DNA of 43,480 bases from an uncultured delta proteobacterium (lineage in GTDB: Bacteria; Myxococcota_A; Polyangia; Polyangiales; Polyangiaceae). Within the stretch, counting starts at the first letter, position 1. The number at the start of each line of letters is the position of its first letter. Positions 26,255 through 43,351 of the stretch are shown piece after piece. The DNA lies in NCBI GenBank assembly GCA_903906315.1, contig CAIVJW010000260.1, forward strand, positions 1 through 43,480, read 5' to 3'. A program made the position numbers and the translations under genes. Under the pieces are notes generated by a model. That model was not told where the DNA came from and ran no database searches. It saw only the letters and a program-made list of their open reading frames with translations.

Positions 26255-29200
26255 ATGGCCACGAGGGGAACGCAGCAGAGCACCGAGACCCGCGCCGCCG
26301 CGCCCCCGTTGCCGCACGCGGCGATCGCCGGGGTGCCGACCGTCGAGTCGACGCTCGCGGTCGTCGCCGCGGGCCGCCTGCTCGACCTCTGCCGCATGTT
26401 CGGCTGCGAGGTGCACGAGGCCCTCGGCGGCAGGGACCGCATCGGCTCGAAGCTTGCCGAGCATCTTCGCGGCCGCTTGCCCGCGCTGCTTCGAGAGCTC
26501 GGGCGCGACGAGCTTCGCGCGGTCTGTCGGAGGCACGGGCTCGATGCCTCGGCGCGGGCGCGCGCTGACTTGGCCGGGAAGGTGCTCGAGGCCGCGGGGC
26601 TCGACCCGCGCGGCGCGACGCTGCGGCCTGCGGCCCCGGGCGCCGATGGCCTCCCGACCCGGGGGCAGGTCGTCCACGCCCGGCACCGCCAGTGGCTCGT
26701 CGACGAGGTTGCCCAGGGCGAGGGCAGCGACTCTCCGCTCGTCCGGCTGGTCTGCCTCGACGACGACGACCCGGGGCGCGCCGTCGACGTGCTCTGGGAC
26801 CTCGAGCTCGGCGCGCGCGTCGTCGCGCCCGAGACCCACGGCATCGGCGACGTGCCGCGCCTCGATCCGCCGTCGCACTTCGGTGCGTACTTGCACTCGC
26901 TCAAGTGGAGCGCGGTGAGCGCGGCCGACGCGACGCGGTTCCAGGCGCCCTTTCGCGCGGGCATCAAGCTCATGGCGCACCAGCTCACGCCGCTCATGAA
27001 GGCGCTCGAGCTGCCGCGCGCGAACCTGTTCATCGCCGACGACGTCGGGCTCGGCAAGACCATCGAGGCGGGGCTCGTGCTGCAGGAGCTCTTGCTCCGG
27101 CAGCAGGCGAGCTACGTCCTCGTCGTCTGCCCCGCGTCCGTGTGCCTCCAGTGGCAGGGCGAGATGCAGCGCCGCTTCGGCCTGCGCTTCGAGGTCATGA
27201 CGCGCCAGTTCGTCGCGTGGCGCCGGCAGGAGCGCGGCTTCGGGACCAACCCGTGGAGCACGCACAACCGCTTCATCATCTCGCACTCGCTGCTGCGCCG
27301 CCCCGAGTACCGCGACACGCTGCTGCACCACCTGGGCGAGCGCGCGAGGAAGGGGCTGCTCATCCTCGACGAGGCGCACGTCGCGGCGCCGGCCTCCGCG
27401 AGCAAGTACGCCGTCGACACGGACATCACGCGCACGATCCGCGATCTCGCGCCCCGCTTCGACAACCGCCTCTTCCTCAGCGCCACGCCCCACAACGGAC
27501 ACTCGAACAGCTTCAGCGCGCTGCTCGAGATCCTCGACCCGGTGCGCTTCACGCGCGGCGTGCCCGTCGAGGGCAAGAAGGACCTCGACGCGATCATGGT
27601 CCGCCGCCTCAAGCGCGACCTCCGGCAGCTCGGCGTCGAGCAGTTCCCGCGGCGCCTGCTCGTGCAGCTCGCGCTCTCGAACACGAGCGACGCGTGGCGC
27701 CTCGACCAGACGAGCTTCGACGCCGAGACCGGCGAGGAGCACAAGGCCGTCACCTCGGCGCTCGGTGCCGGCAAGCCGACCGAGCTCGACCTCGCCGACA
27801 AGCTCGCGAAGTACACGGCGCTCTGCGCGCCGACCTCGGGCCAGGGGCGACTGCCGTTCATCCACATGCAGCAGCGGCTCCTCTCGAGCCCCGAGGCGTT
27901 CGCGCGCACCATCGAGGCGCACGCGCAGGGGCTCACGAAGAAGGGCGGCCCGGTCGCGGCACCGCAACAGCAGAAGCTCCCGGTCGAGAAACGGCGGCCC
28001 AAGGCCGAGGCCGTCCGCGTCGAGGTCGAGGCGGACCCCGAGACGCACGGGATCTCCGACGAGGCCCTCGCCGAGGAGAACCGGAACGCGGTGCGGCGCG
28101 CGAGCGAGGCGCTGCCGACCCCGACGGAGGAGGCGCGAGGCCTGCTCGCCGACCTGCGCTCGCTCGCCGAGAAGGCGCGGCGCCAGCCGGACGCCAAATC
28201 GCTCGCGCTCCTCGCGTGGATGCGCGAGAACCTCTGCCCCGCAATCGGCCTCGGCGAGGGGTCGCGCGCGAGCCGCGCGTGGTCGCCGCGTCGGGTGATC
28301 CTCTTCACCGAGTACGCCGACACGAAGCGCTACCTCGTCGAGCTCCTCACCGCGGCCGCCGAAGGCACTGACGACGCCGAGCACCGCATCCTCCAGTTCC
28401 ACGGCGGCATGGGCGACGACGCGCGCGACGAGGTGCAGCGCGCCTTCAACAGCCGCCCCGAGGACCATCCCGTCCGCATCCTGGTCGCGACCGACGCCGC
28501 GCGCGAGGGCGTCAACCTTCAGGCCCACTGTGCCGACCTCTTCCACATCGACATCCCCTGGAACCCGGCCCGCATGGAGCAGCGCAACGGCCGCATCGAC
28601 CGCACGCTGCAGCCGGCCGACGAGGTGCGCTGCCACTACTTCGTGTACCCGCAGCGCACCGAGGATCAGGTCCTCGAGACCGTCGTGCGCAAGATCGCCA
28701 CCGTGCAGCGCGAGCTCGGTTCGCTCGGCGCGGTGCTGCTCGATCAGATCGAGTCCGTGCTCGCCGACGGCATCACGGGCAAGGCGCGCGCGGCGGTCGA
28801 GAAGGTCGGCTCGGACGCGAAGACCACGACGGTCGACGCGGAGCTCGAAGCACGTCGCCAAGATCTCGAGGCCGTGCGCGAAGAGGTCGCGCAGGCAGGC
28901 AAGCGGCTCGAGAGCTCGCGCCGCACGCTGGAGGTGAACCCCGAGTCGCTCCGCGGCGTCGTCGAGATCGGCCTCCGCCTCGCGGGCGCCGCGGCGCTCG
29001 CGACGGCGGGTGTGACCAGCGACGGGCGCGCGACGTTCACGCTGCCCGCGCTCGACCGCTCCTGGGACGTCACGCTCGACACGCTCCGGCCGCCCCGCGG
29101 GCGCGGCGAGGACTTCTGGGAGTGGCGCCAGAAGCCCCCGTTGCCCGTCACGTTCCACCCGCTCGCGAGCCTCTCCGAGGGCGCCGAGCAGCTCCACCTC

Positions 29201-29902
29201 GCGCACCCCTTCGTGAAGCGCATCCTCGATCGCTTCCTCGCGCAGGGCTTCGGCGCGCACGACCTCACCCGCGTCACCGCCGTCGTCGCGCCCGACGAGA
29301 GCGTCGTCCGCGTGGTCGCCTTCGCGCGCCTCACCCTCTTCGGCACGGGGGCGGCGCGCCTGCACGACCAGCTCGTGCCCATCGCGGCCGCCTGGCCCGC
29401 GGCGGCGAGCGCGGTGAGGCCGTACAAGGATCGCGCGACCGCCGTCAGCGCCATCGCGTCCACCGAGCGCCTCCTCGCGGGCGCGGCGAAGGCCCCGAAC
29501 GCCACCATCGCCAAGCGCATCCGCGACAACGCCGAAGACCTCTTCCGTGCCCTCTGGCCGGACCTCGAAGCCGAGGCCGACGCGCTCGCCGTCGCGGCGC
29601 GCCAGGGGCTCGCCGAACGCGCTCGGCGCGAGGCGGACGACATGCGCGCGCTGCTCTCCCGGCAGGGCACGGCGATCGACAAGGCCGAGCTCCGCCTGCG
29701 CCAGGCGGACCTCTTCAACCTGCAGGACAAGGACCAGAAGCGGCAGGTCGACCTCGACTTGAAGCATCTCGAGAGGCGCCGCAGCGCGGCCGCGAGCGAA
29801 CTCCAGTCCGAGCCCGCCGCGATCGAGGCGCTCTACGAGGTGCGCATGACGCGCCTCACCCCCGTCGGGCTCGTCGTCGCGTGGCCGGAGTCGATGACAT
29901 GA
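26255..29902 (+). CDS. drmD: DISARM class 1 SNF2-like helicase DrmD
   Basis: This 1215-residue SNF2/RapA-type ATPase is the marker of class 1 DISARM. After an N-terminal region with no clear domain (1-240), the helicase core has Walker A DDVGLGKT (262-269, Lys268), DEAH (372-375), motif III SATPHNGHSNSF (from 409), ATDAAREGVNLQ (from 745) and the arginine-finger motif QRNGRIDR (776-783). A C-terminal part with coiled-coil-like charged helices follows (about 1100-1185). The ATG at 26255 follows GGGAGA. The stop overlaps the drmMI start by 4 nt (ATGA), so translation is coupled. It is the first gene of the operon, and its promoter should lie in the 115 bp shared with the divergent thioredoxin gene. 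Confidence 0.93.
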   Translation: MATRGTQQSTETRAAAPPLPHAAIAGVPTVESTLAVVAAGRLLDLCRMFGCEVHEALGGRDRIGSKLAEHLRGRLPALLRELGRDELRAVCRRHGLDASARARADLAGKVLEAAGLDPRGATLRPAAPGADGLPTRGQVVHARHRQWLVDEVAQGEGSDSPLVRLVCLDDDDPGRAVDVLWDLELGARVVAPETHGIGDVPRLDPPSHFGAYLHSLKWSAVSAADATRFQAPFRAGIKLMAHQLTPLMKALELPRANLFIADDVGLGKTIEAGLVLQELLLRQQASYVLVVCPASVCLQWQGEMQRRFGLRFEVMTRQFVAWRRQERGFGTNPWSTHNRFIISHSLLRRPEYRDTLLHHLGERARKGLLILDEAHVAAPASASKYAVDTDITRTIRDLAPRFDNRLFLSATPHNGHSNSFSALLEILDPVRFTRGVPVEGKKDLDAIMVRRLKRDLRQLGVEQFPRRLLVQLALSNTSDAWRLDQTSFDAETGEEHKAVTSALGAGKPTELDLADKLAKYTALCAPTSGQGRLPFIHMQQRLLSSPEAFARTIEAHAQGLTKKGGPVAAPQQQKLPVEKRRPKAEAVRVEVEADPETHGISDEALAEENRNAVRRASEALPTPTEEARGLLADLRSLAEKARRQPDAKSLALLAWMRENLCPAIGLGEGSRASRAWSPRRVILFTEYADTKRYLVELLTAAAEGTDDAEHRILQFHGGMGDDARDEVQRAFNSRPEDHPVRILVATDAAREGVNLQAHCADLFHIDIPWNPARMEQRNGRIDRTLQPADEVRCHYFVYPQRTEDQVLETVVRKIATVQRELGSLGAVLLDQIESVLADGITGKARAAVEKVGSDAKTTTVDAELEARRQDLEAVREEVAQAGKRLESSRRTLEVNPESLRGVVEIGLRLAGAAALATAGVTSDGRATFTLPALDRSWDVTLDTLRPPRGRGEDFWEWRQKPPLPVTFHPLASLSEGAEQLHLAHPFVKRILDRFLAQGFGAHDLTRVTAVVAPDESVVRVVAFARLTLFGTGAARLHDQLVPIAAAWPAAASAVRPYKDRATAVSAIASTERLLAGAAKAPNATIAKRIRDNAEDLFRALWPDLEAEADALAVAARQGLAERARREADDMRALLSRQGTAIDKAELRLRQADLFNLQDKDQKRQVDLDLKHLERRRSAAASELQSEPAAIEALYEVRMTRLTPVGLVVAWPESMT

Positions 29903-32900
29903 AAGACCGAGACGTCCTCTTCCACCGCAAGTGGCTCGGCCTCGCGCAGCCGATCGAAGGCCTCGTCTTCAGCGTGCCCGCGCTCGCCGACGCGCAGATC
30001 GCGCCCGACGAGCGCCCCGCCCTGACGGCCGCGTTCGAGGCCGAGCTCTCCGTCGAGGAGGGCCGCGCGCCGCGCATCAAGAGCCTGCCGGCGTTCTTGC
30101 GCGACTTCCTCGGCTACTCCACGCCCGGCATGCTCGTGCCGCGCGCCGAGCTGCCGGCCGAGGTCGCGTTCTACGCGGCCGAGGGCGGGCAGGAGCTGCG
30201 GCCGAGCTACGCGCTCGGGCGCGGGCCCTTCGCCGCCGCGAGCGACGACCCCTTCGCCGAGTTCGACGCGCCGGCGCCAGCGCCCGCCGCGCCCGCCGAC
30301 CCGAACGCGAAGCCCTGGTTCGCCCTCGTCTGGGACCTGACCGAGTCCGCGCCCGACCTCGACCTCGATGAGGCCGAGAGCGTCACCGGGCCGTGGCGCT
30401 ATCCGCCCACGGCGAAGCTCGAGCGCCTCCTGCGCCACGTCGGGGTGCCGATCGGCCTCCTCTTCAATGGCAAGCACCTGCGGCTCGTGTACGCGCCGAG
30501 CGGGGAGTCGACGGCGCACCTCACGTTCCGCGTCGAGCACCTGCGCGGGGCCGAAGGGCGGCCGCTGCTCACCGCGCTCGATCTGCTCCTCGGCGCGAAG
30601 CGCGCGTACGGGGCCTCGGCCGATCACACCCTCGAAGGCCTGCTCGCCGAGAGCCGCCGGCGGCAGGCCGACGTCACCGAGGAGCTCGCCAAGCAGGTCT
30701 TCGAGGCCGTCGAGATCCTCCTCGCGGGCTTCGAGGCCGCGGCCGCGCGCGACTGCCAGGGAGACAACCTCGACTGGCTGCGCCCGGCGATCGAGGCCGA
30801 GGGCGACCACCTGTACCAGGGCGTGCTCTCGGTCGTCCTGCGCCTCGTGTTCCTGCTCTACGCCGAGGACCAGGCGCTCCTGCCCGTCGAGCACCGCACG
30901 TACGCAGATCACCTCTCGCTCGGCGGCCTCTACGCGCGGCTCGCGCACGACGCGGGCGCGCACCCCGAGAGCATGCACCACCGCTTCGGCGCGTACGGGC
31001 AGCTGCTCGCGCTCTTCCGCGCCGTGTACTTCGGCGTGAAGCACGGCCCGCTCGAGCTGCCGCCGCGGCGCGGGCGCCTCTTCGACCCGAACGCGTATCC
31101 CTTCCTCGAAGGCGGCCTGCCCGAGTGGACGGCCGCCGTCGGCGACCCGGCCGCGCGCGCCGCCGCCCGCCCGCCCAGCATCGACGACGGCACGCTCCAC
31201 AAGGTCCTGCACCGCCTCGTCGTCTTCGCCGGGCAGCGCCTCTCGTACCGCACGCTCGACGTCGAGCAGATCGGCAGCGTCTACGAGTCGCTGATGGGCT
31301 ACCACGTCCGCCGCGTCGCGAGCCCCGCCGTCCGCGTCGGCAAGCTCGGCGTCTGGGTCGAGACGGACGAGCTCGCCGCGATGAGCGCGACCGACCGCGC
31401 GAAGTTCCTGAAGGAGACGTGCGGATTGAGCGCCGCGGCGGTGCAGGGCATCACGGCGGCGTTCGACGACGGAGAGAGAGTACCGCGGAGAGCGCAGAGG
31501 GCGCAGAGGGCGCAGAGCAGAGAGAGGGATGAACAACTCGCTTCCGCCTCTGTGACATCCTCTCACTCTGCGGCCTCTGTGGTCTCTGCGCCCTCTGTGG
31601 TCTCTGCGCCCTCTGTGGTCTCTGGGATCCATGCGTCGGTCGGCTGTCCAGGCGGCGCGCTCGCGGACGCGCTCTCGGCCCACACCCCCGGCCGGCGCTC
31701 GGACGCCGATCGCCATCGCGCGGCCCCCGGTCGGCTCGTGCTCCAGCCCGGCGAGGAGCGGCGGCGCACGGGGTCGCACTACACCCCTCGGTCGCTCACC
31801 GAGAAGGTCGTCAAGCGCACGCTCGAGCCCCTGCTCGCGTGCCTCGGGCCCGAGCGCACGGTCGCGCAGCTCCTCGAGCTGAAGCTCTGCGACCCGGCGA
31901 TGGGCTCCGGGGCGTTCCTCGTGGCGGCGTGCCGCGAGCTCGCGGGCGAGGTGGTCGCGGCGTGGACGCGCGCCGGGGAGCTCGCGTCGGTGATCGAGCA
32001 GCACGGCGACGCGCACCTGCACGCGCGGCGCCTCGTGGCGCAGAAGTGCCTGTACGGCGTCGACAAGAACCCCGCCGCCGTCGAGCTCGCCAAGCTCTCG
32101 CTCTGGCTCGTGACGCTCTCGCGCACGCTGCCGTTCACGTTCGTCGACCACGCGCTCCGCCACGGCGACAGCCTCGTGGGGCTCGATTTCAAGCAGATCG
32201 CGGCGTTCCACTGGCAGCCTCCGAAGCAGGTGGAGACGATCGGCGTCTTGCTCGAGGACGCGCTCGAGCAGTCGGTCGCGCTCCGGCAGGAGATCCTCGC
32301 GCTCGCCGACCACGACGACCCGGTGTCGCAGGCCGAGAAGCGTCGGCTCTTCGACTTCTCGCAGCAGGCCATCGACCGGGTGCGCGTGGTGGCCGACGCG
32401 TGCGTGGGCGCGTTCTTCGCGGAGGCGAAGGACGCGGCGCGCGAGCGCGAGCGGCAGCGGCGGCTGAAGCTCGTCGAGGACTGGCTCGGCCACGAGGCGA
32501 AGGCCGCGGACTACGGGAGGAGCGAGGGCGAGCGCGCGAAGGCAGAGCGAGCGGCCGATGGGGCGAGGGCCGAGCTCGAGGGGCTCGCGGCGGAGGCGAG
32601 GGCGAAGCTCGCGCCGTTCCACTGGTGGATCGAGTTTCCGGAGGTGTTCTTTCAGGAGCGGCCCGATCCGCTGCAGGGCGGGGTCGTGAATGGGGCGGCG
32701 TGCTTCGAGGCGCTGGTGGGCAATCCGCCGTTCGCGGGGAAGAACACGCTCGCAGATTCCCATCCCACGGGCTACGCCGAGTGGCTCCAGGTCGTGCACA
32801 CAGAGTCACACGGCAACAGCGACCTGTCGGCACACTTCTTTCGACGAGCCGCCAAGTTGCTCGGCGCGCACGGTGCCGCCGGCCTGATCGCCACGAACAC

Positions 32901-34194
32901 AATCGCTCAGGGCGACACGCGCAGCACGGGGCTAGCCTGGTTCGCTCGCGCCGGCTGGCAGCTATTCGATGCCACTACCTCAATGCCGTGGCCGGGTGCT
33001 GCGGCCGTGACGGTATCCATTGTGCACGCGGCCATCGGTGAGGCTCGCTCGCGCGTCGGTGTGACACTCGACCTTGCGCCCGTCGAGCAAATCAACTCAC
33101 GTCTCCGCGCTGGGCACGAACACGCGGACCCCGCGCCGCTCGCCGCCAATCACGCGCTGAGCTTTCAGGGCACAATCGTGCTCGGCCAGGGCTTTGTCCT
33201 GTCGAGCGAGGAGCGTGATCAGCTGGTGACGCGGAAGGCTAGCAATTCCGCTCGAATCTTCCCGTACATTAACGGGATAGAGGTGACAACGTCGCCAGTT
33301 CAGGCCAGCGAGCGCTGGGTGATTAGCTTCGGTACGATGTCGCTCACCGAGGCCGAGCAGTGGTCCGACCTCATGCGCATCGTTCGTGAGCGCGTGAAGC
33401 CGGAGCGCGAGCGGCTCAAGGACAACGTCGACGGATTGCACCGGAAGAAGTACTGGTGGCACTTTGGCCGCTGGACGCCCGCGCTTTACGACGCGATCAG
33501 ACCGATGCGTCGCTGCCTCGTCACAGCCATCAGTGGCAAGCACCGCACCTTCGCTTGGCTGCCGACGAGCTGGGTCCTCGATCAGGCTTTGATTGTCTTC
33601 CCACTGGAGAGCGGTTGCGGATTTTCGATCCTCCAGTCCCGCGCTCATGAGGTCTGGTCGGTTGCACACTCCGCGACACTGAAGCAGGACCAGCGATACA
33701 ACTCGTCGCGGGCATTCGAGACCTTCCCCTTCCCGTCCCCCGACCCGCGCACCGTGATCCCCGCCCTCGAAGCCATCGGCGAGCGCCTGTACGCCGCGCG
33801 CGCCGCGTTCATGGTGTCCACCGAGCAGGGCCTCACGAAGACGTACAACGCGCTCAAGGACTCGAGCTGCGTCGACCCGCGCGTGCTCGAGCTCCGGCGC
33901 CTGCACGAGGCGATGGACCGCGCCGTGATCGAGGCCTACGGCTGGCAGGCGATGCCCCCCGTGCCGCCGTACTGCCCGATGAACGATGCGGACCGCGCGG
34001 CGCTCGCGGCGTTCGAGGACGAGGTGATCGACCGGCTGTACGTGCTCAACGCGGAGCGGGCGCGGGAGGAGGCGCTCGCGGGGGTCGGGGGCAAGAAGAA
34101 GGAGACGAAGGGCGAGCCTGCCGGGGAGGGCGCGCCGAAGAAGAAGGCCGGAAAGGGAAAGAGGCCGCCCGGCGGGCAGGAGACGATGTTCTGA
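29899..34194 (+). CDS. drmMI: DISARM DNA N6-adenine methyltransferase DrmMI
   Basis: This 1431-residue methylase belongs to the Eco57I/PglX-like group and marks host DNA so that DISARM restricts only foreign DNA. Residues 1-500 form the N-terminal region. Motif I is CDPAMGSGAFLVAACREL (from 664) and motif IV is GNPPF (941-945). A target-recognition region and C-terminal helices follow, ending in a Lys-rich tail. Two oddities stand out: a hairpin repeat inserted in frame at residues about 525-577, between the N-terminal region and motif I, and a stretch (about 949-1273) with clearly lower third-position GC than its flanks, as if the recognition domain had been exchanged. The ATG overlaps the drmD stop by 4 nt. 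Confidence 0.92.
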   Translation: MKDRDVLFHRKWLGLAQPIEGLVFSVPALADAQIAPDERPALTAAFEAELSVEEGRAPRIKSLPAFLRDFLGYSTPGMLVPRAELPAEVAFYAAEGGQELRPSYALGRGPFAAASDDPFAEFDAPAPAPAAPADPNAKPWFALVWDLTESAPDLDLDEAESVTGPWRYPPTAKLERLLRHVGVPIGLLFNGKHLRLVYAPSGESTAHLTFRVEHLRGAEGRPLLTALDLLLGAKRAYGASADHTLEGLLAESRRRQADVTEELAKQVFEAVEILLAGFEAAAARDCQGDNLDWLRPAIEAEGDHLYQGVLSVVLRLVFLLYAEDQALLPVEHRTYADHLSLGGLYARLAHDAGAHPESMHHRFGAYGQLLALFRAVYFGVKHGPLELPPRRGRLFDPNAYPFLEGGLPEWTAAVGDPAARAAARPPSIDDGTLHKVLHRLVVFAGQRLSYRTLDVEQIGSVYESLMGYHVRRVASPAVRVGKLGVWVETDELAAMSATDRAKFLKETCGLSAAAVQGITAAFDDGERVPRRAQRAQRAQSRERDEQLASASVTSSHSAASVVSAPSVVSAPSVVSGIHASVGCPGGALADALSAHTPGRRSDADRHRAAPGRLVLQPGEERRRTGSHYTPRSLTEKVVKRTLEPLLACLGPERTVAQLLELKLCDPAMGSGAFLVAACRELAGEVVAAWTRAGELASVIEQHGDAHLHARRLVAQKCLYGVDKNPAAVELAKLSLWLVTLSRTLPFTFVDHALRHGDSLVGLDFKQIAAFHWQPPKQVETIGVLLEDALEQSVALRQEILALADHDDPVSQAEKRRLFDFSQQAIDRVRVVADACVGAFFAEAKDAARERERQRRLKLVEDWLGHEAKAADYGRSEGERAKAERAADGARAELEGLAAEARAKLAPFHWWIEFPEVFFQERPDPLQGGVVNGAACFEALVGNPPFAGKNTLADSHPTGYAEWLQVVHTESHGNSDLSAHFFRRAAKLLGAHGAAGLIATNTIAQGDTRSTGLAWFARAGWQLFDATTSMPWPGAAAVTVSIVHAAIGEARSRVGVTLDLAPVEQINSRLRAGHEHADPAPLAANHALSFQGTIVLGQGFVLSSEERDQLVTRKASNSARIFPYINGIEVTTSPVQASERWVISFGTMSLTEAEQWSDLMRIVRERVKPERERLKDNVDGLHRKKYWWHFGRWTPALYDAIRPMRRCLVTAISGKHRTFAWLPTSWVLDQALIVFPLESGCGFSILQSRAHEVWSVAHSATLKQDQRYNSSRAFETFPFPSPDPRTVIPALEAIGERLYAARAAFMVSTEQGLTKTYNALKDSSCVDPRVLELRRLHEAMDRAVIEAYGWQAMPPVPPYCPMNDADRAALAAFEDEVIDRLYVLNAERAREEALAGVGGKKKETKGEPAGEGAPKKKAGKGKRPPGGQETMF
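31471..31630 (+). repeat. Hairpin-forming CGCAGAG repeat inserted in drmMI
   Basis: Two or three copies of GAGGGCGCAGAG on one side are answered by three copies of CTCTGTGGTCTCTGCGCC-type units on the other, so the region can fold into an imperfect hairpin. It is in frame and encodes RAQRAQRAQ followed by SVVSAPSVVSAPSVVS, sequence unrelated to the methylase fold. It resembles the CACAGAGG hairpin at 88-171. Confidence 0.85.
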
Positions 34195-34392
34195 GGCGGG
34201 GCGCGGCGCAGGCGATCGCTGGGCGCGACATCGGCCCCGGCGCGACGTCGACCGTTCGGCGCGCCACGGGGCCCGGGCGGCCATGGGAACCGCGGGCCGC
34301 ATCTGACAGGCCGAGCGTGAATCGGTCGTGACGCCCGCCTCGAGGCGCCGGCTCGCGCCCCCGCCCGGCCCCGGTGTAAGGTCGCGCGGCGC

Positions 34393-35658
34393 ATGAAGAT
34401 CACGAAGCTCTCCGTCCGCGACTACCGGGGCTACCAGCAGCTCGACCTGGATCTGTCGCCCGACGTGACCGTGCTCGTCGGGGTCAACGGCGCCGGCAAG
34501 ACGTCGCTGATCGACGCGATGGCGCGGCTGCTTTCGTGCATTCCCCAGGGCGTACGGACCGGCTCGCCGGAGGGGCCGGCGCTGACGGCGAGCGATGTGC
34601 GGGTGAGTGCCTCGACAGCACGTGCCTTGTTGAGCGCCGCGATCGGCGACGAGACCGTCACGTGGCAACTCGCGACGACCCACGTCGGGCACCCTGCGGG
34701 CGACCCCGGGCGTCTGGAGAACCTGCGTGGTCCGATCGCGGCGGCCCAGCGCTCGCTCGCCGCCGACGCGCCGAACTTGCCGCTCGCCGTCTACTTCCCC
34801 ACCAACCGGAGCGCGCTCGACATCCCGTCGCGGATTCGCACGCCCCATGAGTTCGATGCGCTGTCCGCGTATGACGGCGCGCTCGAGGGCGGTACGAGCA
34901 ACTTCCGCGGCTTCTTCGAGTGGTTTCGCGAGGAGGAGGACATCCTCAACGAACAGCTCGTGCTGGGCGATGAGAACCCGGAGCTCCGGGCGCGCATCGC
35001 CCCCTCCCCGCTGCATGCGGTGCGCGCCGCCATCGAGCAGCTGCTGCCTAGCGCGCGGCACCTCCGGATCGAACGCCGACCGCAGCGCATGACAGTCGTG
35101 ATGAACGGGGTTCAGCTCGACGTCGCCCAGCTCTCGGACGGGGAGAAGTGTCTCCTTGCTCTGGCCGGCGATCTCGCGCGTCGCATGGCGCTCGCGGCGC
35201 CCAAATCCGCCAAGCCACTCGAGCATCCCGCGGTCGTCCTCATCGACGAGATCGAGCTGCACCTTCACCCGGGCATGCAGCGCCAGATCCTCCCACGGCT
35301 CCGGCGCGTGTTTCCGAACGCGCAGTTCATCGTCAGCACGCACTCGCCGCAGGTGCTCTCCTCGGTTCGCGCCGAGTGCGTACGCGTGCTCGAGGGCTTC
35401 AGCCTGCGCAGGCTCGAGGGCGGCACCTGGCGACGCGATACGAACCGGGTCCTGGAGTCCGCCTTCGGCGACCCGGGGCGTCCGCCCGAGGTGGCCGCGA
35501 AGCTCAACCAGCTCCGCGACGCCGTCGACGGCGATCGCGTCGAGGAGGCGCGACGCCTGATTCGGGAGCTTCGCGCGGAGATCGAAGGCGACGACCCCGA
35601 CGTGTTCTTCTACGAGCAGCTCCTTCCGCCGGAGGGCGGCCCGGGGGCCGAGTCGTGA
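34393..35658 (+). CDS. SMC/RecF-like ATPase resembling PtuA (Septu/retron type)
   Basis: This 421-residue ABC-type ATPase has an N-terminal KLSVRDYRGYQQLDLDL strand pair, Walker A GVNGAGKTS (Lys36), signature LSDGEKCLLALAGDLARR (from 247), Walker B VVLIDEIELHLHP (Asp285, Glu286) and the H-switch STHSPQVLSS (His317). This is the AAA_15/AAA_21 family used in Septu (PtuA), retron and OLD-type defence. The next gene overlaps by 4 nt (GTGA) and encodes an HNH protein, which is the PtuA-PtuB pairing. A 198-bp gap from drmMI and TAAGGT 10 nt before the ATG suggest its own promoter. It probably senses phage and controls the nuclease partner. The family call is firm; the Septu assignment is inferred. 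Confidence 0.85.
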   Translation: MKITKLSVRDYRGYQQLDLDLSPDVTVLVGVNGAGKTSLIDAMARLLSCIPQGVRTGSPEGPALTASDVRVSASTARALLSAAIGDETVTWQLATTHVGHPAGDPGRLENLRGPIAAAQRSLAADAPNLPLAVYFPTNRSALDIPSRIRTPHEFDALSAYDGALEGGTSNFRGFFEWFREEEDILNEQLVLGDENPELRARIAPSPLHAVRAAIEQLLPSARHLRIERRPQRMTVVMNGVQLDVAQLSDGEKCLLALAGDLARRMALAAPKSAKPLEHPAVVLIDEIELHLHPGMQRQILPRLRRVFPNAQFIVSTHSPQVLSSVRAECVRVLEGFSLRRLEGGTWRRDTNRVLESAFGDPGRPPEVAAKLNQLRDAVDGDRVEEARRLIRELRAEIEGDDPDVFFYEQLLPPEGGPGAES

Positions 35659-36323
35659 GGTACATCGACAAGGCGACCGAGCCCGCGACGGTCACGGAGA
35701 CACGCTGTGCCGCGACCACGAAGCTCGACACGGCGGCGCACGCTCGCGGCGCGTTCGACCAGCTCGACAAGGCCGCCGTGCGCAAGCGGCTGGCTGCGGA
35801 GCAGGGATTCCTGTGCGGTTTCTGCATGCGTCGCATCGGCCACGAGACGCAGGACGCGCGCGGGGAGCCCACGATGAAGATCGCGCATCGCATGCCGATC
35901 GACGCCGACCATTCGCTCGCATTGACGTGGAAGAACCTGATCGGGTCGTGCGACGGCGGGCAGCGCTCGCAGGGCCGCTGCTGGACGTGCGATGCGGCCC
36001 AGGGTTCGAAGCCGCTCTCCGTCGATCCGACCGAGAAGGGCTCCGTCGGGCGCCTCGCCTACGGGCGCCGGGCGGACGCGTCGGGCTTGTTCGTGACGTC
36101 GGACGACGAGATCCTGAGGACCGACGTGGACCACACGCTGAAGCTCAACTCGGGCGATCTTCCCGCGCTTCGCGATGCGGCCCGCAAGGCCTTCCAGGAA
36201 CACTGCCGACGGGCGCTCGCAACCCGCGGACGGCCCGCGTGGAAGCAGGCCTACCCGGCGTGGCTCACGAGGTACGGCGACGCGCTGCCCGAATTTCTCG
36301 GTGCGATCGAAGCTCTGCTCTGA
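35655..36323 (+). CDS. HNH-type nuclease resembling PtuB / retron-associated HNH
   Basis: This 222-residue protein starts at a GTG overlapping the ATPase stop. The N-terminus VRYIDK, the zinc-like CGFCMRR (Cys54, Cys57), KIAHRMP (His78), LTWKNLIGSCDGG (Asn94, Cys99) and CWTCDAAQGSKPLSVDP (Cys109, Cys112) follow the order of the TIGR02646-type HNH proteins that pair with PtuA-like ATPases. The last conserved HCD-x-x-K/Q-G box reads TCDAAQG, so a histidine usual at that place appears to be replaced by Thr. It is predicted to cut DNA (or tRNA, as known for some retron PtuAB) when released by the ATPase. The gap to drmA is 70 bp. Confidence 0.82.
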   Translation: MRYIDKATEPATVTETRCAATTKLDTAAHARGAFDQLDKAAVRKRLAAEQGFLCGFCMRRIGHETQDARGEPTMKIAHRMPIDADHSLALTWKNLIGSCDGGQRSQGRCWTCDAAQGSKPLSVDPTEKGSVGRLAYGRRADASGLFVTSDDEILRTDVDHTLKLNSGDLPALRDAARKAFQEHCRRALATRGRPAWKQAYPAWLTRYGDALPEFLGAIEALL

Positions 36324-36393
36324 CCGACGGCACGAATCTCGTCGCTTCGAACGCGGAGAACGACCGCTCCCGGGATAGTCTCGCGGCCGCCCC

Positions 36394-39300
36394 ATGAACG
36401 AAGTCGACGTCCGCAAACGCCTCGTCGCCGCCCTCGAAGCCGATCTCGTGGGCCCCTTCGTCCCCGACGATCACCCGCAGGGCGGCCAGGAGGTCCTGCC
36501 GCTCGCGCCGTCGCGCTGGTACCTGACCGGCTTCCTCGCGCCGCAGGGTGGCCGCGTCCCCGACGCCGACGATCGCGACTCGACCGATGACGTGCTCGCC
36601 GCGGGCAGCGAGAGTCAGGCCGAGGACGCCGGCACCGAGGAGCCCGAGCCGAAGCGCACGGTGCGGTTCCCCGCGTCGATGGGCCTCTCCGTCTTCCTGC
36701 CCCCCAGTCTCGATGGGGCCGCGAGCGGCCCCAAACCCCAGGGCGAGGGCGACACGATCGACGTCGACGTCTGGTACGCCGACTACGACAAGATCGAGGT
36801 CGCCCTCGAGCACAGCGACAAGAAGGCGGCGGGGTGGAAGCGCGTGCCGCACGGCCCGGTGCGCGTTCCGGTGCCGCTCGACCCGAAGGCGCTCGCGAAG
36901 AAGGAGGGCCTCCCGGTCCCGGGCACCCGCGGGCTCGTGCTGAAGGGCGAGCTTCGGCGAACGACGATGGATGGGCTCGAGCCAGGCACGCGCGTGCTCA
37001 GCCTGTTCCTGGTCAACGACCGCGCCGAGCTCGACAAAGACCGCGACACGCAGTTCGCCTTCCAGGTGAGGATGGAGCTCGGGTACGCGCGCGGCTTCGT
37101 CTCGCGCCCGAACCGGAGGGGCGAAGGCGGCAACGACGACGACCTCGCCGTCCTGGCGCTGAACTTCCGCGAGCAGCGCGAGTGGGCCGTCGGGCACAAC
37201 GCGAGCGTCGAGCAGCCGGTCGTGAAGGACGGCAAGGTGACGCGCGTGCGCACGACCGCGCTGCCGCGCTACGAGGTGCCGCGCGTCGGACACCGCACCA
37301 TCGCAGACGCCACGATGGGCATGGCGGACCTCGCCAAGCTCGACGGCAAGGGCCTCGCGAACGCGCTCTCGCCGCTCGTCGAGGCCTACGGCGCGTGGAT
37401 CGACGAGCAGCGCCACGTTCCCCTCGAACGCGACGCGCTCGAGGGCACGCGCGACGATCTGATCGCCAAGGCGATGCACGCGAAGAAGCGGGTTGCGGAG
37501 GGGCTCGCTCTGCTCGGTAAGGACGCGCAGGTGCTCCGCGCGTTCCGGCTGATGAACCAGGCGATGCACGTCACCGCGCTGCAGGCCGATCGGACGCGCG
37601 AAGACCCTCGCTACGTTGCCGGCAAGCAGCCCGAGTGGCGGCCGTTCCAGCTCGCCTTCGTCCTGATGAACCTGCCCTCGGTGGTCGACCCGGGCCACGA
37701 GGACCGCAAGGCGGCGGAGCTCATCTACTTCCCCACGGGCGGCGGCAAGACCGAGGCGTACCTCGGCCTCATCGCGTTCGTGTTGCTGATGCGGCGCCTG
37801 CGCGGCCAGGGGACGCCACACGAAGGGCGGGGCGTCGCGGTGCTGCTCCGCTACACGCTGCGCCTGCTCACCCTCGACCAGCTCGGGCGCGCGGCCACGC
37901 TGATGTGCACGCTCGAGGAGCTACGGCGCAAGCTCCCCGCGGAGCTCGGCAACGCGCGCTTCACGATCGGCCTGTGGGTCGGCTCGAGCGCGAGCGCGAA
38001 CCGCCTGAAGGACGTGCACGCGGCGCTCTCCGACTACACGCCGGGGCGGACGGACTCGCCCTTTCCGCTCACGAGCTGCCCGTGGTGCGGCGAGCCGATC
38101 AAGATCCAGAACATCAAGCTCGTAGACCCGGAGGGCAAGCCGACCAAGAAGAACTTCGCGCGCTGCGCGGTCTACTGCGACCAGAGCGGATGCCTCTACA
38201 CGGAGGCGAAGGTGCCCGGGCTCGGGCTGCCGGTGATCTTCGTCGACGAGCAGATCTACCAAGAGGTCCCGAGCTTCATCGTCGCGACGGTCGACAAGTT
38301 CGCGATGATGCCTTGGCGCGGTGACGCGGGCATGCTTTTCGGCCGCGCTACGCACGTCGATGACCAGCGCGCGTACGGCGTCATGCACTCGCCCCCGGTG
38401 GGCGCTCGGCCGCTGCCCGAGGGCCTGCTCCCGCCCGAGCTCATCGTGCAGGACGAGCTGCACCTCATCAGCGGTCCGCTCGGCACGATGGTCGGGCTCT
38501 ACGAGGCGGCCGTCGACTACCTGTGCGAGAGGCCCGTCGGCGGGACGCCGAGGCCGCCCAAGGTCGTTTGCTCCACGGCGACGGTGCGCCGCGCGCGCGA
38601 GCAGATCCAGGCGATCTTCGGCCGGAAGACGAGCCTGTTTCCGCCCCGAGGGGTCACCCACGGCGACGACTTCTTCTCGAAGGTCGAGTGGGACGTCCCG
38701 GGCCGGCTGTACGTCGGCGTTGGCGCGCCGGGTCGCGCGCTCCGCGCGGTGTCGGTGCGCACGTACGCCGTGCTGCTCGCGGCGGCGCAGAAGCACTTCG
38801 ACAAGAAGGGCAACCCGAAGCAGCCGGCCGACCCGTACATGACGCTCGTCGGCTACTTCAACAGCCTGCGCGAGCTCGGCGGCATGCGGCGCCTCGTCGA
38901 GGACGAGGTGCAGAACCGCGTGAAGGAGATCGAGGGCGAGAAGCGGCCTCGCCTCTACCTCGGCCCCCACCCGTGGGCGGGGGATCGGCGCCTCGTGCTG
39001 CCCGCCGAGCTCACGTCCCGCGAGCCGACGGAGCGCGTGAAGCAGACCAAGGCGAGGCTCGCCGCGCGCCGCACGTCGACGGACCCCGAGCCGCTCGACG
39101 TGGTGCTGGCCTCCAACATGATCTCGGTCGGCCTCGACGTGGACCGGCTCGGCCTGATGGTCGTCACCGGCCAGCCGAAGACGACGAGCGAGTACATCCA
39201 GGCGACGAGCCGCGTCGGGCGCGCCTATCCCGGGCTCGTCGTCACGTGCCTGAACGTCGGCCGGCCCCGCGACCGTTCGCACTACGAGCGCTTCGTGGCC

Positions 39301-39813
39301 TACCACGAGAGCTTCTACCGCGAGGTCGAGGCGACGAGCGTGACGCCGTTCAGCGGTCAGGCCCTCGACCGCGGCCTCGTCGGGACCCTGCTGTCGATGG
39401 TTCGGCACGGGATCCCGGGGATGGAAGCGCCAACGGGCGTGATGAAGCTTCACGCCGAGCGCCCGGCGGCCGAGCAGCTCCTCGGGTGGATGGTCCGGCG
39501 CGCGCGGGGCCATCGCTACTCTCATGACGACGAGGCCGAGACGCGGCTGGCGGACCTCGTGCGCGCGCGCGGTCGGAAGTTCCTCGATGCGTGGGAGCGG
39601 GTCGTCGACAAGGCGCGCGACGGGGCGGCGAGCCGCATCTACAGCCCCTTCGAGAAGGCCGGGAGCGAGGGTGGAGCGCTGATGTTCACCGCCAACGACG
39701 ACCCTCCCGACGATCACGACGCCCGGTCCTTCCAGGCGCCGACCTCGATGCGTGACGTCGAGCCGAGCGTGCACGTGTGGCTGCGCTTCAAGGCGCTGGA
39801 CGAGAGGAACTGA
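36394..39813 (+). CDS. drmA: DISARM helicase DrmA
   Basis: This 1139-residue helicase-like protein is a core DISARM subunit that, with DrmB, recognises and unwinds invading DNA. It has Walker A FPTGGGKTE (about 446-454, Lys452), a zinc-like cluster starting SCPWCGEPI (Cys562, Cys565) with RCAVYCDQSGC about 28 residues later, the DELH box (687-690), CSTATVRRA, SNMISVGLDVDRLGLMVVTG (from 907) and TSRVGR ending at 943. Residues about 105-116 are encoded by a copy of a dispersed repeat, within an acidic, probably disordered N-terminal stretch. TAGTCT lies 12 nt before the ATG, so an internal promoter is possible. The stop overlaps drmB by 1 nt (TGATG). Confidence 0.95.
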   Translation: MNEVDVRKRLVAALEADLVGPFVPDDHPQGGQEVLPLAPSRWYLTGFLAPQGGRVPDADDRDSTDDVLAAGSESQAEDAGTEEPEPKRTVRFPASMGLSVFLPPSLDGAASGPKPQGEGDTIDVDVWYADYDKIEVALEHSDKKAAGWKRVPHGPVRVPVPLDPKALAKKEGLPVPGTRGLVLKGELRRTTMDGLEPGTRVLSLFLVNDRAELDKDRDTQFAFQVRMELGYARGFVSRPNRRGEGGNDDDLAVLALNFREQREWAVGHNASVEQPVVKDGKVTRVRTTALPRYEVPRVGHRTIADATMGMADLAKLDGKGLANALSPLVEAYGAWIDEQRHVPLERDALEGTRDDLIAKAMHAKKRVAEGLALLGKDAQVLRAFRLMNQAMHVTALQADRTREDPRYVAGKQPEWRPFQLAFVLMNLPSVVDPGHEDRKAAELIYFPTGGGKTEAYLGLIAFVLLMRRLRGQGTPHEGRGVAVLLRYTLRLLTLDQLGRAATLMCTLEELRRKLPAELGNARFTIGLWVGSSASANRLKDVHAALSDYTPGRTDSPFPLTSCPWCGEPIKIQNIKLVDPEGKPTKKNFARCAVYCDQSGCLYTEAKVPGLGLPVIFVDEQIYQEVPSFIVATVDKFAMMPWRGDAGMLFGRATHVDDQRAYGVMHSPPVGARPLPEGLLPPELIVQDELHLISGPLGTMVGLYEAAVDYLCERPVGGTPRPPKVVCSTATVRRAREQIQAIFGRKTSLFPPRGVTHGDDFFSKVEWDVPGRLYVGVGAPGRALRAVSVRTYAVLLAAAQKHFDKKGNPKQPADPYMTLVGYFNSLRELGGMRRLVEDEVQNRVKEIEGEKRPRLYLGPHPWAGDRRLVLPAELTSREPTERVKQTKARLAARRTSTDPEPLDVVLASNMISVGLDVDRLGLMVVTGQPKTTSEYIQATSRVGRAYPGLVVTCLNVGRPRDRSHYERFVAYHESFYREVEATSVTPFSGQALDRGLVGTLLSMVRHGIPGMEAPTGVMKLHAERPAAEQLLGWMVRRARGHRYSHDDEAETRLADLVRARGRKFLDAWERVVDKARDGAASRIYSPFEKAGSEGGALMFTANDDPPDDHDARSFQAPTSMRDVEPSVHVWLRFKALDERN
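36706..36739 (+). repeat. Dispersed repeat, copy B, inside drmA
   Basis: This 34-bp sequence differs at one base from the copy at 12832-12865 and includes the same palindrome GGGGCCGC-GAG-CGGCCCC. It is in frame, encoding PSLDGAASGPKP in a variable linker of DrmA. Confidence 0.85.
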
Positions 39814-41705
39814 TGAGCGCGCCGCGCAAGAAGAAGGACGCCCGCAAGGTCTCGCGCCCTGAAGGCCAGCTCCGGCAGAGCCAGCTCGTCACGACGTTCG
39901 GGCCCGGCGCCATGGTCGATCTCGTCGACCGCGCCGTCGTGATCGGGGGGCTCGAGCACTGGGGCTTCAGCCGCGAGAAGGGGTACGTCGCGCTCGACGA
40001 CGCGCGCCTGCGTCGCTCGCTGGTGCCGCGGTTGAAGGCGCTCGACGCGGACCTCGACCTGGCGCGCGAGGGGTACTTCCGGATGCCGCCGGAGAGCGAC
40101 GCCCGCGATCCATTTCCGAGCGTCGGCGTCCGCGCGCTCGAGTTCCCGCGCTGGTTCGTCTGCCAGAAGTGCCGGAGGCTCGCGCGTGCCGCCGACGGGG
40201 GCTTCGAGAACAAGTCCGGTCGCTACCGCCACGAGTGCTCGAAAAACCAGTGGTCGAGCGCGGTCCCCGTGCGCTTCGTCGCCGCCTGCAAGCGCGGGCA
40301 TCTCTCGGACTTCCCCTGGATCGCGTTCGCGCACATGGATCACGAGGGCGGCCCGTGCGACCGCGTCGAGCTCTACCTCGAAGAGCGGTCGCTCGGCGAC
40401 GTCGCGCAGATCATCGTGCGCTGCGACAACTGCAAGTCGAGCCTGCCGATGAGCCGCGCCTCGGTGCTGCCGTACAAGTGCGGCGGCGATCGCCCATGGC
40501 TCGGCGGCCGCGCCGTGAACGAGAAGTGCGACCAGCAGGCCACGCTGCTCGTCCGCACCGCCTCGAACGCCTACTTCTCCCAGGTGGTCAGCGCGCTCCG
40601 CCTGCCCGACCCCGACCCGGATCCGCTTCGGCTGCGGCTGCGCCCGAAGGACGTGTGGAAGGCCGTGCAGAAAGTCACGACCGCCGAGCAGCTGGCCGTG
40701 TTCACGGGCCTGATGGAGCACGTCGCCGCCGCGGTGGAGGGGTTCAGTGCCGAGCAGGTCCTTGCGGCGATCCGCGCCGAGAACGCCGCCGGGAGCAGTG
40801 TCTCCGAGCGGCCGCTGCGAAGCGCCGAGTACGAGCGACTCGTCAACGCCCCGAACGAGCTGCCAGGCGTGGTGCCCGATGCCGGCGCGCAGTTCGCGGC
40901 CTACCGCATCCCGCCGCACAAGGTCGACCTGCCGCCGGGGGTGAAGGGGCTCGTGGTCGTCCCCGAGCTGCGCGAGGTGCGCGTGCAGGTGAGCTTCAGC
41001 CGGTTCGACTCGGTCGGCGCGAACCTGCAGGGCGAGTACGACTTCGAGGGGAGGCAGGTGAAGCCCGCGGTGCTGACGTTGCCGACCGGCAACGAGAAGT
41101 GGCTCCCCGCCGCCGAGGTGCGCGGCGAGGGCGTCTTCCTCGAGCTCGACGAGGAGGCGCTGCAGGCGTGGGAGCAGCGCGACGCCGTGAAGCTGCGGGC
41201 CGAGCAGCTCCTGCGCGCCTTCGACTCGGGCGACAAGAAGGGCGAGTTCCCGGGCGTGCGCTTCTTCCTCCTGCACTCGCTGTCGCACCTCCTGCTCACG
41301 GCGATCAGCCTGGAGTGCGGCTACGCGGCGAGCGCGATCCGCGAGCGCATCTACTGCGGTCGCGCGGAAGAGAACGGGCCGAACATGGCCGCCGTGATGC
41401 TGCTGACCGGCACGACCGGCAGCGAAGGGACGCTCGGCGGCCTCGTCGAAGAGGGGCGGCGCATCCGCTACCACCTCGGTGAGGCCTGGGACCTCGGGCG
41501 CCTCTGCTCGAACGATCCGGTGTGCGCCGCGCACGACCCGAGCACCGACACGAGCGACCGCCGGACCGAAGGCGCCGCGTGCCACGGCTGCCTCTACATC
41601 GCCGAGGTCTCGTGCGAGCGGTTCAACCGCCTGCTCGATCGCGCGCTGGTCGTGCCGACGATCGGCAATGACCCCGAGCTCGCCTTCTTCCGGGAACGCC
41701 CGTGA
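39813..41705 (+). CDS. drmB: DISARM protein DrmB (DUF1998)
   Basis: This 630-residue partner of DrmA carries the DUF1998 domain. Early motifs are QLVTTFGPGAMVDL (residues about 21-34) and a Cys-rich region with CQKC (117-120) and a later CDNC, probably binding zinc. The DUF1998 core is LHSLSHLLLTAISLECGYAA (from 487), followed by TGTTGSEGTLGGL and a C-terminal ACHGCLYI. The ATG shares a base with the drmA stop, and its own stop overlaps the drmC GTG. DrmA and DrmB are known to form a complex, and the coupling here fits equal expression. Confidence 0.95.
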   Translation: MSAPRKKKDARKVSRPEGQLRQSQLVTTFGPGAMVDLVDRAVVIGGLEHWGFSREKGYVALDDARLRRSLVPRLKALDADLDLAREGYFRMPPESDARDPFPSVGVRALEFPRWFVCQKCRRLARAADGGFENKSGRYRHECSKNQWSSAVPVRFVAACKRGHLSDFPWIAFAHMDHEGGPCDRVELYLEERSLGDVAQIIVRCDNCKSSLPMSRASVLPYKCGGDRPWLGGRAVNEKCDQQATLLVRTASNAYFSQVVSALRLPDPDPDPLRLRLRPKDVWKAVQKVTTAEQLAVFTGLMEHVAAAVEGFSAEQVLAAIRAENAAGSSVSERPLRSAEYERLVNAPNELPGVVPDAGAQFAAYRIPPHKVDLPPGVKGLVVVPELREVRVQVSFSRFDSVGANLQGEYDFEGRQVKPAVLTLPTGNEKWLPAAEVRGEGVFLELDEEALQAWEQRDAVKLRAEQLLRAFDSGDKKGEFPGVRFFLLHSLSHLLLTAISLECGYAASAIRERIYCGRAEENGPNMAAVMLLTGTTGSEGTLGGLVEEGRRIRYHLGEAWDLGRLCSNDPVCAAHDPSTDTSDRRTEGAACHGCLYIAEVSCERFNRLLDRALVVPTIGNDPELAFFRERP

Positions 41706-42475
41706 CGTCGAACCGCGCGAGCCTGAAGAACGTGAGCACGACCGTGCTTGTCGAGCTGCGGGCTGCCCTCGCGTCGGGGCAGCTGCGGACGCCGACGGAT
41801 CGCGCCGCGCTCGTCGGCTTCGGCGTGCGCCACCAGCTCGAGGCTGTCGAGCTCGCCCTCGCCGGCCACAAGACGGCGGCGTGTCTCGCGATCCTCGACG
41901 TTGCGCTGGCTGAGCGTGAGGACCGGAAGCCGACGCCGGAGCTCGTGTGGACCGGCCCGGAGGCGCCGGCGGGCACGGCGCGCGACACCGCGATCGTTCT
42001 GCGGTCGCTCTTCGAGGGCGCCCGCGAGAGCGTGCTCCTCGCCGGCTACAGCTTCGATCACGCGCACGACGTGCTCGCGCCGCTCCACGGCGCGATGAAG
42101 GACCACGGGGTTGCGGCGCGGTTCTTCGTCGATGTACCGCAGGTCGAGCGTGGCGCGCCCACCGAGGGCCACGTCGCCCACCACCTCGGGAAGTTCGTGA
42201 CCGAGAGCTGGCCCTTCGGCGATCAGCGCCCGCGCCTCTACTACGACCGGCGCGCGCTCGTGCCCGGCCCGCCGTGGTGCAGCCTGCACGCGAAGTGCGT
42301 CGTCGTCGACGGCGCGAAGGCGTTCGTCTCGAGCGCCAACTTCACGCAGCGGGGCCAGGAGCGAAACATCGAGGTCGGCGTCCTTATCGAGGACGCGAGC
42401 TTCGCCAGCTACCTCGCCGGCCAGTGGTTGGGGCTGATCGACGCGGGGATCGTGGGGGAGTTCGTTCCGGGGTAG
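41702..42475 (+). CDS. drmC: DISARM phospholipase-D-like protein DrmC
   Basis: This 257-residue protein has an N-terminal helical part (1-95) and a PLD-type domain with one HxKx4D motif, LHAKCVVVD (His196, Lys198, Asp203), followed by SSANFTQRGQERNIEVGV. PLD-family nucleases with a single motif act as dimers. In DISARM DrmC is reported to be dispensable for some phages. The GTG start overlaps the drmB stop by 4 nt (GTGA). It is the last drm gene; the next 180 bp have no convincing gene. Confidence 0.93.
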   Translation: MTSNRASLKNVSTTVLVELRAALASGQLRTPTDRAALVGFGVRHQLEAVELALAGHKTAACLAILDVALAEREDRKPTPELVWTGPEAPAGTARDTAIVLRSLFEGARESVLLAGYSFDHAHDVLAPLHGAMKDHGVAARFFVDVPQVERGAPTEGHVAHHLGKFVTESWPFGDQRPRLYYDRRALVPGPPWCSLHAKCVVVDGAKAFVSSANFTQRGQERNIEVGVLIEDASFASYLAGQWLGLIDAGIVGEFVPG

Positions 42476-42661
42476 GACAGTCGCGTCTGTCGGCACAGCT
42501 TGAACCTCGCCGAGGCGACGGCACGCGGCGGACCGCTCGTGTCTGGTCGCCTCGCCGCGAAGAGTCCGGGATCTGGACCGTTCGCGCGCTCGGCTCCGCG
42601 GACGCAAATCGGGCGGATTCCAGGGGATAAGAACGATGAGCCGGTCGCTCCGGCCTTCACC

Positions 42662-42754: not shown

Positions 42755-42763
42755 TGCCCCGCC

Positions 42764-42798
42764 GACCGAAGGCCCCGACGGGCGCTCGGTCTTCTTTC
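42764..42798 (+). terminator. Intrinsic terminator
   Basis: GACCGA (42764-42769) and TCGGTC (42786-42791) form a 6-bp stem, followed by the T-rich tail TTCTTTC. A longer GC-rich pairing inside the loop is possible. Confidence 0.6.
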
Positions 42799-43338: not shown

Positions 43339-43351
43339 ACCCGCCACCACC

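Follow-up and report, generated by a model that had tools for sequence, protein, structure and literature searches.

A Septu-type ptuA-ptuB pair nested in a class 1 DISARM operon and a recurrent cargo slot between drmMI and drmA

Genes and Features of the DISARM Locus

The 43,480-nt stretch of DNA analyzed here (the window) is an entire contig (C260) of an 8.8-Mb genome, and it contains a complete class 1 DISARM operon in the order drmD-drmMI-drmA-drmB-drmC, split only between drmMI and drmA by two genes, ptuA and ptuB, which encode an ATPase and an HNH endonuclease. All seven genes are located on the + strand and have zero internal stops. A previous sequence-only reading of this DNA had proposed that the core DISARM order is interrupted by such a pair, in the same orientation as the drm genes; profile matches, coordinates, and strand all agree with this. 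As described below, the two genes probably form a complete Septu type I module that sits, as an exchangeable cassette, in a cargo slot seen repeatedly in class 1 DISARM loci; this slot separates the modification half of the operon (drmD-drmMI) from the helicase half (drmA-drmB-drmC). The features of the locus are as follows.

26255..29902, + strand: drmD, SNF2-like helicase of class 1 DISARM (NF038317, 1077 bits, cut-off 610); start codon uncertain; the model begins near 26651, and our own drmD model also runs from 26651
29899..34194, + strand: drmMI, N6-adenine methyltransferase of DISARM (PADLOC DrmMI, 1231 bits; motifs DPAMGSG and NPPF; no stops)
34195..36393, no strand: cargo slot between drmMI and drmA, here filled by ptuAB
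34195..34392, no strand: gap between drmMI and ptuA (198 bp); promoter or terminator consensus not found
34393..35658, + strand: ptuA, AAA ATPase of Septu, 421 aa, ATG start (PADLOC PtuA PDLC00271, 419.6 bits)
35655..36323, + strand: ptuB, HNH endonuclease of Septu, 222 aa, GTG start (PADLOC PtuB PDLC00322, 135.6 bits)
36394..39813, + strand: drmA, YprA-family helicase (NF038325, 1114 bits, cut-off 950)
39777..41705, + strand: drmB, DUF1998/MZB protein (NF038324, 524 bits, cut-off 240); start codon uncertain
41702..42475, + strand: drmC, phospholipase D-type nuclease (NF038319, 165 bits, cut-off 133; HxK...D motif)

DrmD, DrmA, DrmB, and DrmC exceeded their NCBIfam cut-offs, and helicase and methylase motifs were found in the DISARM proteins of the window; judged by these motifs and the lack of internal stops, the DISARM genes are intact. 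The genes drmD and drmMI overlap by 4 nt. A 70-bp gap lies between the ptuB stop (36323) and the drmA start (36394).

Identity and Integrity of the ptuA-ptuB Pair

By its profile matches and motifs, the pair is PtuA/PtuB of Septu type I, nested in class 1 DISARM with its motifs intact. The alignment of the ATPase to the PADLOC PtuA model spans model positions 1–410 of 421. PtuA carries a Walker A motif (GVNGAGKT, with K36) and a Walker B motif (VVLIDEIE, with D285), and the HNH residues H78 and N94 are in place in PtuB; these are the motif sets that the sequence-only reading had attributed to the two proteins. Parts of a study on Septu EcB88 (PMC13096335) report that defence requires PtuA K43 or D316 and PtuB H75 or N91, residues to which the motif residues of the window probably correspond. 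The 4-nt overlap between the two genes, also noted before, is the GTGA at 35655–35658. A search with PtuA/PtuB and TIGR02646 profiles had been proposed as a check, and its outcome was divided, since both PADLOC models matched but TIGR02646 reached 34.7 bits on the HNH protein, under its cut-off of 52.15; a Pfam scan of this protein matched no family. The relatives of PtuA with solved structures, as found by sequence, are the PtuA proteins of retrons Ec83 and Ec78 as well as PtuA 8ee4 (best E 2.8e-48), and the window PtuA (P0001) could be aligned to 8ee4 over residues 1–387. For PtuB, the best match to a solved structure was weak (E 2.5e-4), and a structure prediction from a 2-row alignment had a mean predicted local distance difference test score (pLDDT) of 33.8, too low for the model to be used.

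The 198-bp gap upstream of the pair, described before, follows from the drmMI stop at 34194 and the ptuA start at 34393; the possible promoter hexamer proposed along with it found no support, with 0 sigma-70-type sites in 34100–36500 (shuffles yielded a mean of 0.1). An alignment of ptuA upstream regions presented no clear conserved block. One candidate for an own ptuAB promoter, the element CCGGTGTAAGG / CCGGTATATGG near the ptuA start in the window and in a second genome described below, was rejected; although it was the best 11-mer at a similar distance, it was equalled by 71 of 500 shuffles, and other 11-mers scored equal when no distance limit was set (145/500 shuffles).

Nested Pairs and PtuA Relatives in Other Genomes

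Searching GTDB genomes with an alignment of DrmA, followed by a gene-order script, revealed the same arrangement in Sorangium cellulosum So0157-2 (NC_021658.1, locus L130), where the order is drmD-drmMI-[167-aa open reading frame on the opposite strand]-ptuA-ptuB-drmA-drmB-drmC. This 14.8-Mb, one-contig genome belongs to the same family group as that of the window. In both genomes a full small system is thus found inside a larger, otherwise full system. Between the two loci, BLASTP identity is 306/423 for PtuA and 131/226 for PtuB (73% and 60% in the alignments). The ratio of nonsynonymous to synonymous substitution rates (dN/dS) is 0.29 for ptuA and 0.44 for ptuB, as compared to 0.20–0.28 for the five drm genes, with dS values of 0.72 and 0.79 for ptuA and ptuB and of 0.42 to 0.74 for the drm genes; by this measure ptuAB is under purifying selection. 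The sequence-only reading had suggested a survey of other DISARM loci for the same insertion, and because the Sorangium locus has the pair too and dN/dS is well below 1, the pair is neither unique nor decayed. It may have been resident in the operon since the two loci diverged. In the PtuA tree, the window and Sorangium copies are sisters (98*) and a copy outside DISARM (L103) joins next (100*); this tree was built with a quick method, 11 of its 26 inner branches are open, and one sequence with an internal stop (L104) was left out.

A third, distant pair (L225, G467:C192), about 40% identical over PtuA, is located between the 3′ part of a drmMI and the 5′ end of a drmA. This interval extends over about 14 kb and contains an element that is IS66-like by eye as well as a second drmA start (10638–10900 versus 15561–15828, 89.6% identical), and its drmMI starts at a repeat of 138 bp located at the end of the contig. 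From its sequence, this locus is a decayed, much expanded slot, which supports the place but not a working system. Outside the window's own genome, 20 regions around the best PtuA relatives, taken from 46 places at E ≤ 1e-25 in a 377-genome sample of the phylum, showed no drm genes in the fetched flanks; among four further regions with PtuA relatives, one had drm genes (L225). Phage records yielded four PtuA matches (25–37% identical). A second PtuA-like ATPase, 35% identical to the first, was found in the window's own genome at a contig end (C1:467-1528; L002, L071).

Survey of DISARM Junctions

Among 97 relatives searched, 39 presented DrmA profile matches (33 above the cut-off). The survey of junctions combined the window with 38 loci of relatives and 80 loci from GTDB, for a total of 119, or 110 after removal of nine duplicates, defined by an identical 60-mer in drmA (L161 and L193, which share it with L160, are different records). 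As the GTDB loci were the best 80 matches, the sample leans toward DrmA of the window's kind. Junction length was measured between the stop of the upstream gene and the aligned start of the downstream gene, and denominators are loci with a measurable junction, from which junctions exceeding the fetched flank can drop out. Counted in this way over the 110 DrmA loci, junctions of at least 700 bp were found between drmMI and drmA in 43 of 69 cases, between drmD and drmMI in 4 of 46, and at neither drmA-drmB (0/105) nor drmB-drmC (0/86); the 43 comprise 42 scored by script and one (L050) counted by hand at 1697 bp, where a spurious drmMI match had given −77. The drmMI-drmA junction was shorter than 400 bp, commonly 10–40 bp, in 24 of the 69 loci. 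Filled slots were found in Myxococcota, Cyanobacteriota, Planctomycetota, Acidobacteriota, and Pseudomonadota. The drmMI-drmA junction is a recurrent cargo slot, or hotspot, of class 1 DISARM.

Five annotated plasmid loci (of 67 records with a DrmA match) were examined, including one with a closed junction, from Sphingomonas, and four with extra genes. Three of the latter carry a gene for an XRE-type regulator and one for a small protein, one of these three also having a gene for a phospholipase D protein, while a stretch with transposase, MqsA, and SecB genes was also found; two of the four cargo-bearing loci (L217 and L218) carry insertion sequences or broken drm genes.

Content and Turnover of the Slot

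Cargo genes were derived from simple codon-bias gene calls. Of 108 open reading frames of at least 100 aa, 87 were scanned (including the pair of the Sorangium locus), the other 21 having been left out by eye as spurious-looking, short, or repetitive. Families among the 87 proteins include GmrSD type IV restriction (five), AAA_21 (four), IrrE-type peptidase M78 (four), nucleotidyltransferases (three), and YhcG/DUF1016 nuclease, Uma2, and PIN_10 (two each). Single cases include DarTG (L184), Schlafen AlbA_2 (L179), an HD protein (L049), a protein kinase (L066), a HEC-01A-type ATPase (L137), and a protein that has an HSP90-type ATPase domain and a match to a type II restriction model (L035). The slot of a Nostoc carneum plasmid2 locus (L178:7936-9860) contains an AAA_15 ATPase (PtuA model 107 bits, AriA 92) and a DUF4435 partner with a weak AriB match (24 bits), and this cargo may be a PARIS-like guard. 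Of the cargo proteins scanned singly, 8 of 30 had no Pfam family. Seventy-eight cargo open reading frames of at least 100 aa run in the direction of the drm genes and 32 in the opposite direction; cargo opposite to the drm genes must be transcribed on its own.

In a DrmA tree built with FastTree from 67 loci (without L058 and L069, which were too short), the filled or empty state of the slot requires at least 13 changes, as compared to a mean of 20.0 in shuffled data, in which 0 of 500 runs were as low; the state is therefore clustered but labile. The closest starred DrmA clade of the window (6 rows, 99*, open inside) contains two slots with PtuAB, one with an HD protein and a 179-aa protein, one with an IrrE-type and a 184-aa protein, one with a protein showing a borderline AAA match, and one that is empty. 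The locus with the HD cassette (L049) is the sister of the Sorangium locus (99*).

Two close pairs of loci delimit the edges of the slot. In Calothrix (L154, empty) and Fortiea (L156, filled), DNA identity is 88.5% on the drmMI side and 95.2% on the drmA side, and two loci of one Halomicronema with different cargo (L149 and L169) are 88.1% and 86.9% identical on these sides. In both pairs, homology ends 4–10 nt before the drmMI stop and returns 12–14 nt before the aligned drmA start. Fragments resembling the locus's own drmMI tail or drmA head were found in 6 of 45 slots (6 of 90 tests, as compared to 0 of 90 with reversed sequence), with best E values of 9e-9 and 4e-7; the Sorangium locus has one short fragment (19 aa, E 7e-4). 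These fragments look like scars of recombination between DISARM loci. By eye, the cargo in the draft genome of Halomicronema sp. CCY15110 consists of small toxin-antitoxin-like genes at one locus and of GmrSD-like and PIN-like genes at the other.

Relation to Known Systems

Like Septu type I (PADLOC PtuA1/PtuB1; 8ee4), the pair consists of an ATPase gene followed by an overlapping HNH gene with the same motifs and profile scores of 420 and 136 bits; unlike Septu type I, it is located inside a DISARM operon, whereas the 20 best-placed relatives have no drm genes in the fetched flanks. Similarly, the host operon resembles class 1 DISARM in having the five genes in order on one strand but differs from it in the interrupted drmMI-drmA junction and in a 56-aa in-frame repeat insertion in drmMI. 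A complete small module between the genes of a larger one has been described in parts of several papers on embedded systems, or "guilt-by-embedding" (PMC12255303, PMC12988326, PMC12839542, PMC8565338); what differs here is the host, class 1 DISARM, and the single favoured junction. Passages of this literature place Septu and HEC candidates within Hma, and Septu with Hma (PMC12255303, PMC8565338), as well as DarTG2 between hsdS and hsdR in enteropathogenic E. coli (PMC12255303). The word DISARM is absent from the main text of the BREX paper (PMC12839542). Neither Septu inside DISARM nor a slot between drmMI and drmA was described in the literature passages covered, a search that did not extend to Payne et al. 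2024, which may list DISARM hosts, or Ofir et al. 2018; a preprint on YprA helicases that treats DISARM at length contains neither the word Septu nor the word drmMI. Embedding of defence systems is already known, and the DISARM slot suggests a built-in cargo bay.

ATPase and HNH-type pairs were also identified between hsdS and hsdR in type I operons on an Enterobacter plasmid (L203:8001-9999) and a Ketogulonicigenium plasmid (L204:8001-9945). Neighbouring genes overlap by 1–17 nt in these two regions; the HNH is annotated only in the Ketogulonicigenium pair, and the Enterobacter partner, annotated as hypothetical, matches the window PtuB with 28 bits. In the type I and DISARM cases alike, the cargo lies between modification and restriction genes.

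Interpretation of the Nested Pair

We consider it probable that the pair is a complete Septu type I module and an exchangeable cassette in the cargo slot. The sequence evidence behind this comprises the PtuA/PtuB identity, intact motifs, and purifying selection of the two genes, together with the second copy at the same place in Sorangium, the hotspot junction, and the turnover of slot content. The sequence-only reading had offered two forms of a composite defence system, of which independent modules packed together fits better, because unrelated cargo is found at the drmMI-drmA junction, DISARM operons without cargo exist, and PtuA relatives occur outside DISARM. In known Septu systems, ATP controls the PtuA oligomer. 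Such an oligomer is reportedly the subject of work by Li et al. in 2024, going by its title. In the cassette, a PtuA oligomer would hold PtuB, as in Septu elsewhere, and infection may release HNH activity against phage DNA or host tRNA. Passages on DISARM report that DrmAB is stimulated most by unmethylated DNA (PMC9142583); beside DISARM action on unmethylated incoming DNA, the cassette could add a second, growth-arresting layer, and in the simplest case would act as an independent second layer by one of the known PtuAB activities. With regard to these activities, parts of two papers describe that the Septu system of E. coli ATCC 25922 acts on DNA with nicks and that PtuAB of retron-Eco4 likely spares tRNA (PMC11555353, PMC13096335). 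Cargo might persist at this junction since recombination there would spare DISARM, and late or suicidal effectors may be selected beside restriction systems that phages inhibit.

Several findings weigh against this interpretation. PtuAB is rare, being found in 2 of 45 slots of at least 400 bp, plus the decayed locus L225, which was reached from the PtuA side. The DrmA tree places the locus with the HD cassette (L049) nearer to the Sorangium locus than the window, and a single capture of PtuAB therefore requires a later loss. The simple gene calls cover 0 to 0.37 of the slot in L058, L059, L065, and L069, and drmMI or drmA is in pieces at L058, L061, L069, L126, L150, L159, L197, and L201. The slot may also reflect recombination rather than selection.

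An alternative, which is plausible by analogy with restriction operons of other kinds but clearly less probable, is that the pair is wired to DISARM as a backup that fires when DISARM is inhibited or overwhelmed and then kills or arrests the cell, as the sequence-only reading had also proposed. PrrC in EcoprrI is a backup of this kind. Like PrrC-type suicide RNases in type I operons and PARIS (AriA/AriB), the window pair would be a nuclease that is driven by an ATPase and lies inside a restriction system or guards it, but PtuA and PtuB are separate proteins and their nuclease is of the HNH type, and no link of theirs to anti-restriction was met in the literature passages covered. According to parts of the published record, PARIS acts in this way against Ocr, PrrC170 has been assayed with hsd genes against phages (PMC11555353), host tRNA-Tyr is cleaved or depleted by PtuAB upon infection in the cases of retron-Eco7 and Septu EcB88 (PMC11555353, PMC13096335), and embedded dyads of OLD-ABC and nuclease are read as backup effectors in a BREX survey (PMC12839542). 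Wiring would also be consistent with the retention of the nesting in two genomes at drm-like rates of change, with the ATPase and HNH-type pairs between hsdS and hsdR, and with DarTG in another DISARM slot and the possibly PARIS-like ATPase and DUF4435 partner in a third. However, the slot is interchangeable and frequently empty (below 400 bp in 24/69), close DISARM relatives hold unrelated cargo, relatives of the window PtuA occur outside DISARM, and tRNA is likely not the target of retron-Eco4 PtuAB in the passages that describe it; a physical or regulatory link between the pair and DISARM is not known.

A broader and somewhat more doubtful proposal is that class 1 DISARM forms a chassis of two parts, with a dedicated bay for exchangeable effectors between its modification and helicase halves. 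Cargo such as PtuAB would be wired to this chassis; for example, single-stranded or nicked phage DNA generated by DrmAB could license it, or a block of DrmAB could release it, and each lineage would pick its second-line killer by cassette exchange via duplicated ends of drmMI and drmA.

Clustering of defence genes in islands is well established. It seems improbable, however, that the pair represents ordinary packing of this type, i.e., a chance landing at a site that is nothing special; while several cargo families match PADLOC or toxin-antitoxin-type models, the site is special, with 43/69 junctions filled as compared to 0/105 and 0/86 at other junctions, across five phyla.

Least probable by far, and rejected here, is a reading of the pair as the effector component of a type I-A retron whose reverse transcriptase was lost or displaced, since reverse transcriptases are located on other contigs only, retron RNA was not found, and the retron PtuA branches apart. 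Retron PtuA profiles do match the ATPase (PDLC02913 ATPase_I-A, 282 bits; NF041760, 270 bits), and retron PtuA proteins are its best solved relatives, but the top profile is of the Septu type, and the NCBIfam retron-Ec78 equivalogs remain under their cut-offs for both PtuA (270 versus 500) and PtuB (51.3 versus 150). The five RVT_1 matches of the genome are found on contigs C197, C375, C185, C415, and C313, with none in the window, and an Rfam scan of 25000–43480 identified zero retron RNA, although retron RNAs that are not in Rfam would be missed; the Rfam matches obtained in this region were miRNA-type models only, false matches on a palindromic repeat in drmMI. The sole retron PtuA in the tree (from Vibrio, on a long branch) falls outside the starred 3-row clade of the window. 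Of the combined Septu/retron label given by the sequence-only reading, the Septu part stands and the retron part is not supported.

Should the junction prove to be a true cargo slot, it would offer a ready place to seek new anti-phage modules, as the non-closed junctions hold varied genes. Close DISARM pairs with and without cargo (Calothrix/Fortiea) or with different cargo (Halomicronema) would allow a direct test of whether suicide effectors are recruited as insurance, and the Septu case is represented in a record titled as complete, that of Sorangium cellulosum So0157-2.

Additional Observations

Positions 31484–31624 of drmMI contain an in-frame palindromic pair of short arrays, CGCAGAGGG and CTCTGCGCCCTCTGTGGT. 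Together with its flanks, this repeat insert accounts for 56 extra aa, which are missing from the four relatives compared, and sequence resembling the repeat is present on five other contigs of the same genome; the insert resembles a dispersed repeat that has spread into the linker preceding the methylase domain. Another DrmA locus of full length, accompanied by drmB and drmC, is present in the genome (C384:42033-45464; L011, L042), and the roughly 10 kb fetched upstream of it showed no drmMI. Outside the DISARM locus, a 70-bp tandem unit is present in 3.1 copies with a 94% match at positions 12843–13057 of the window.

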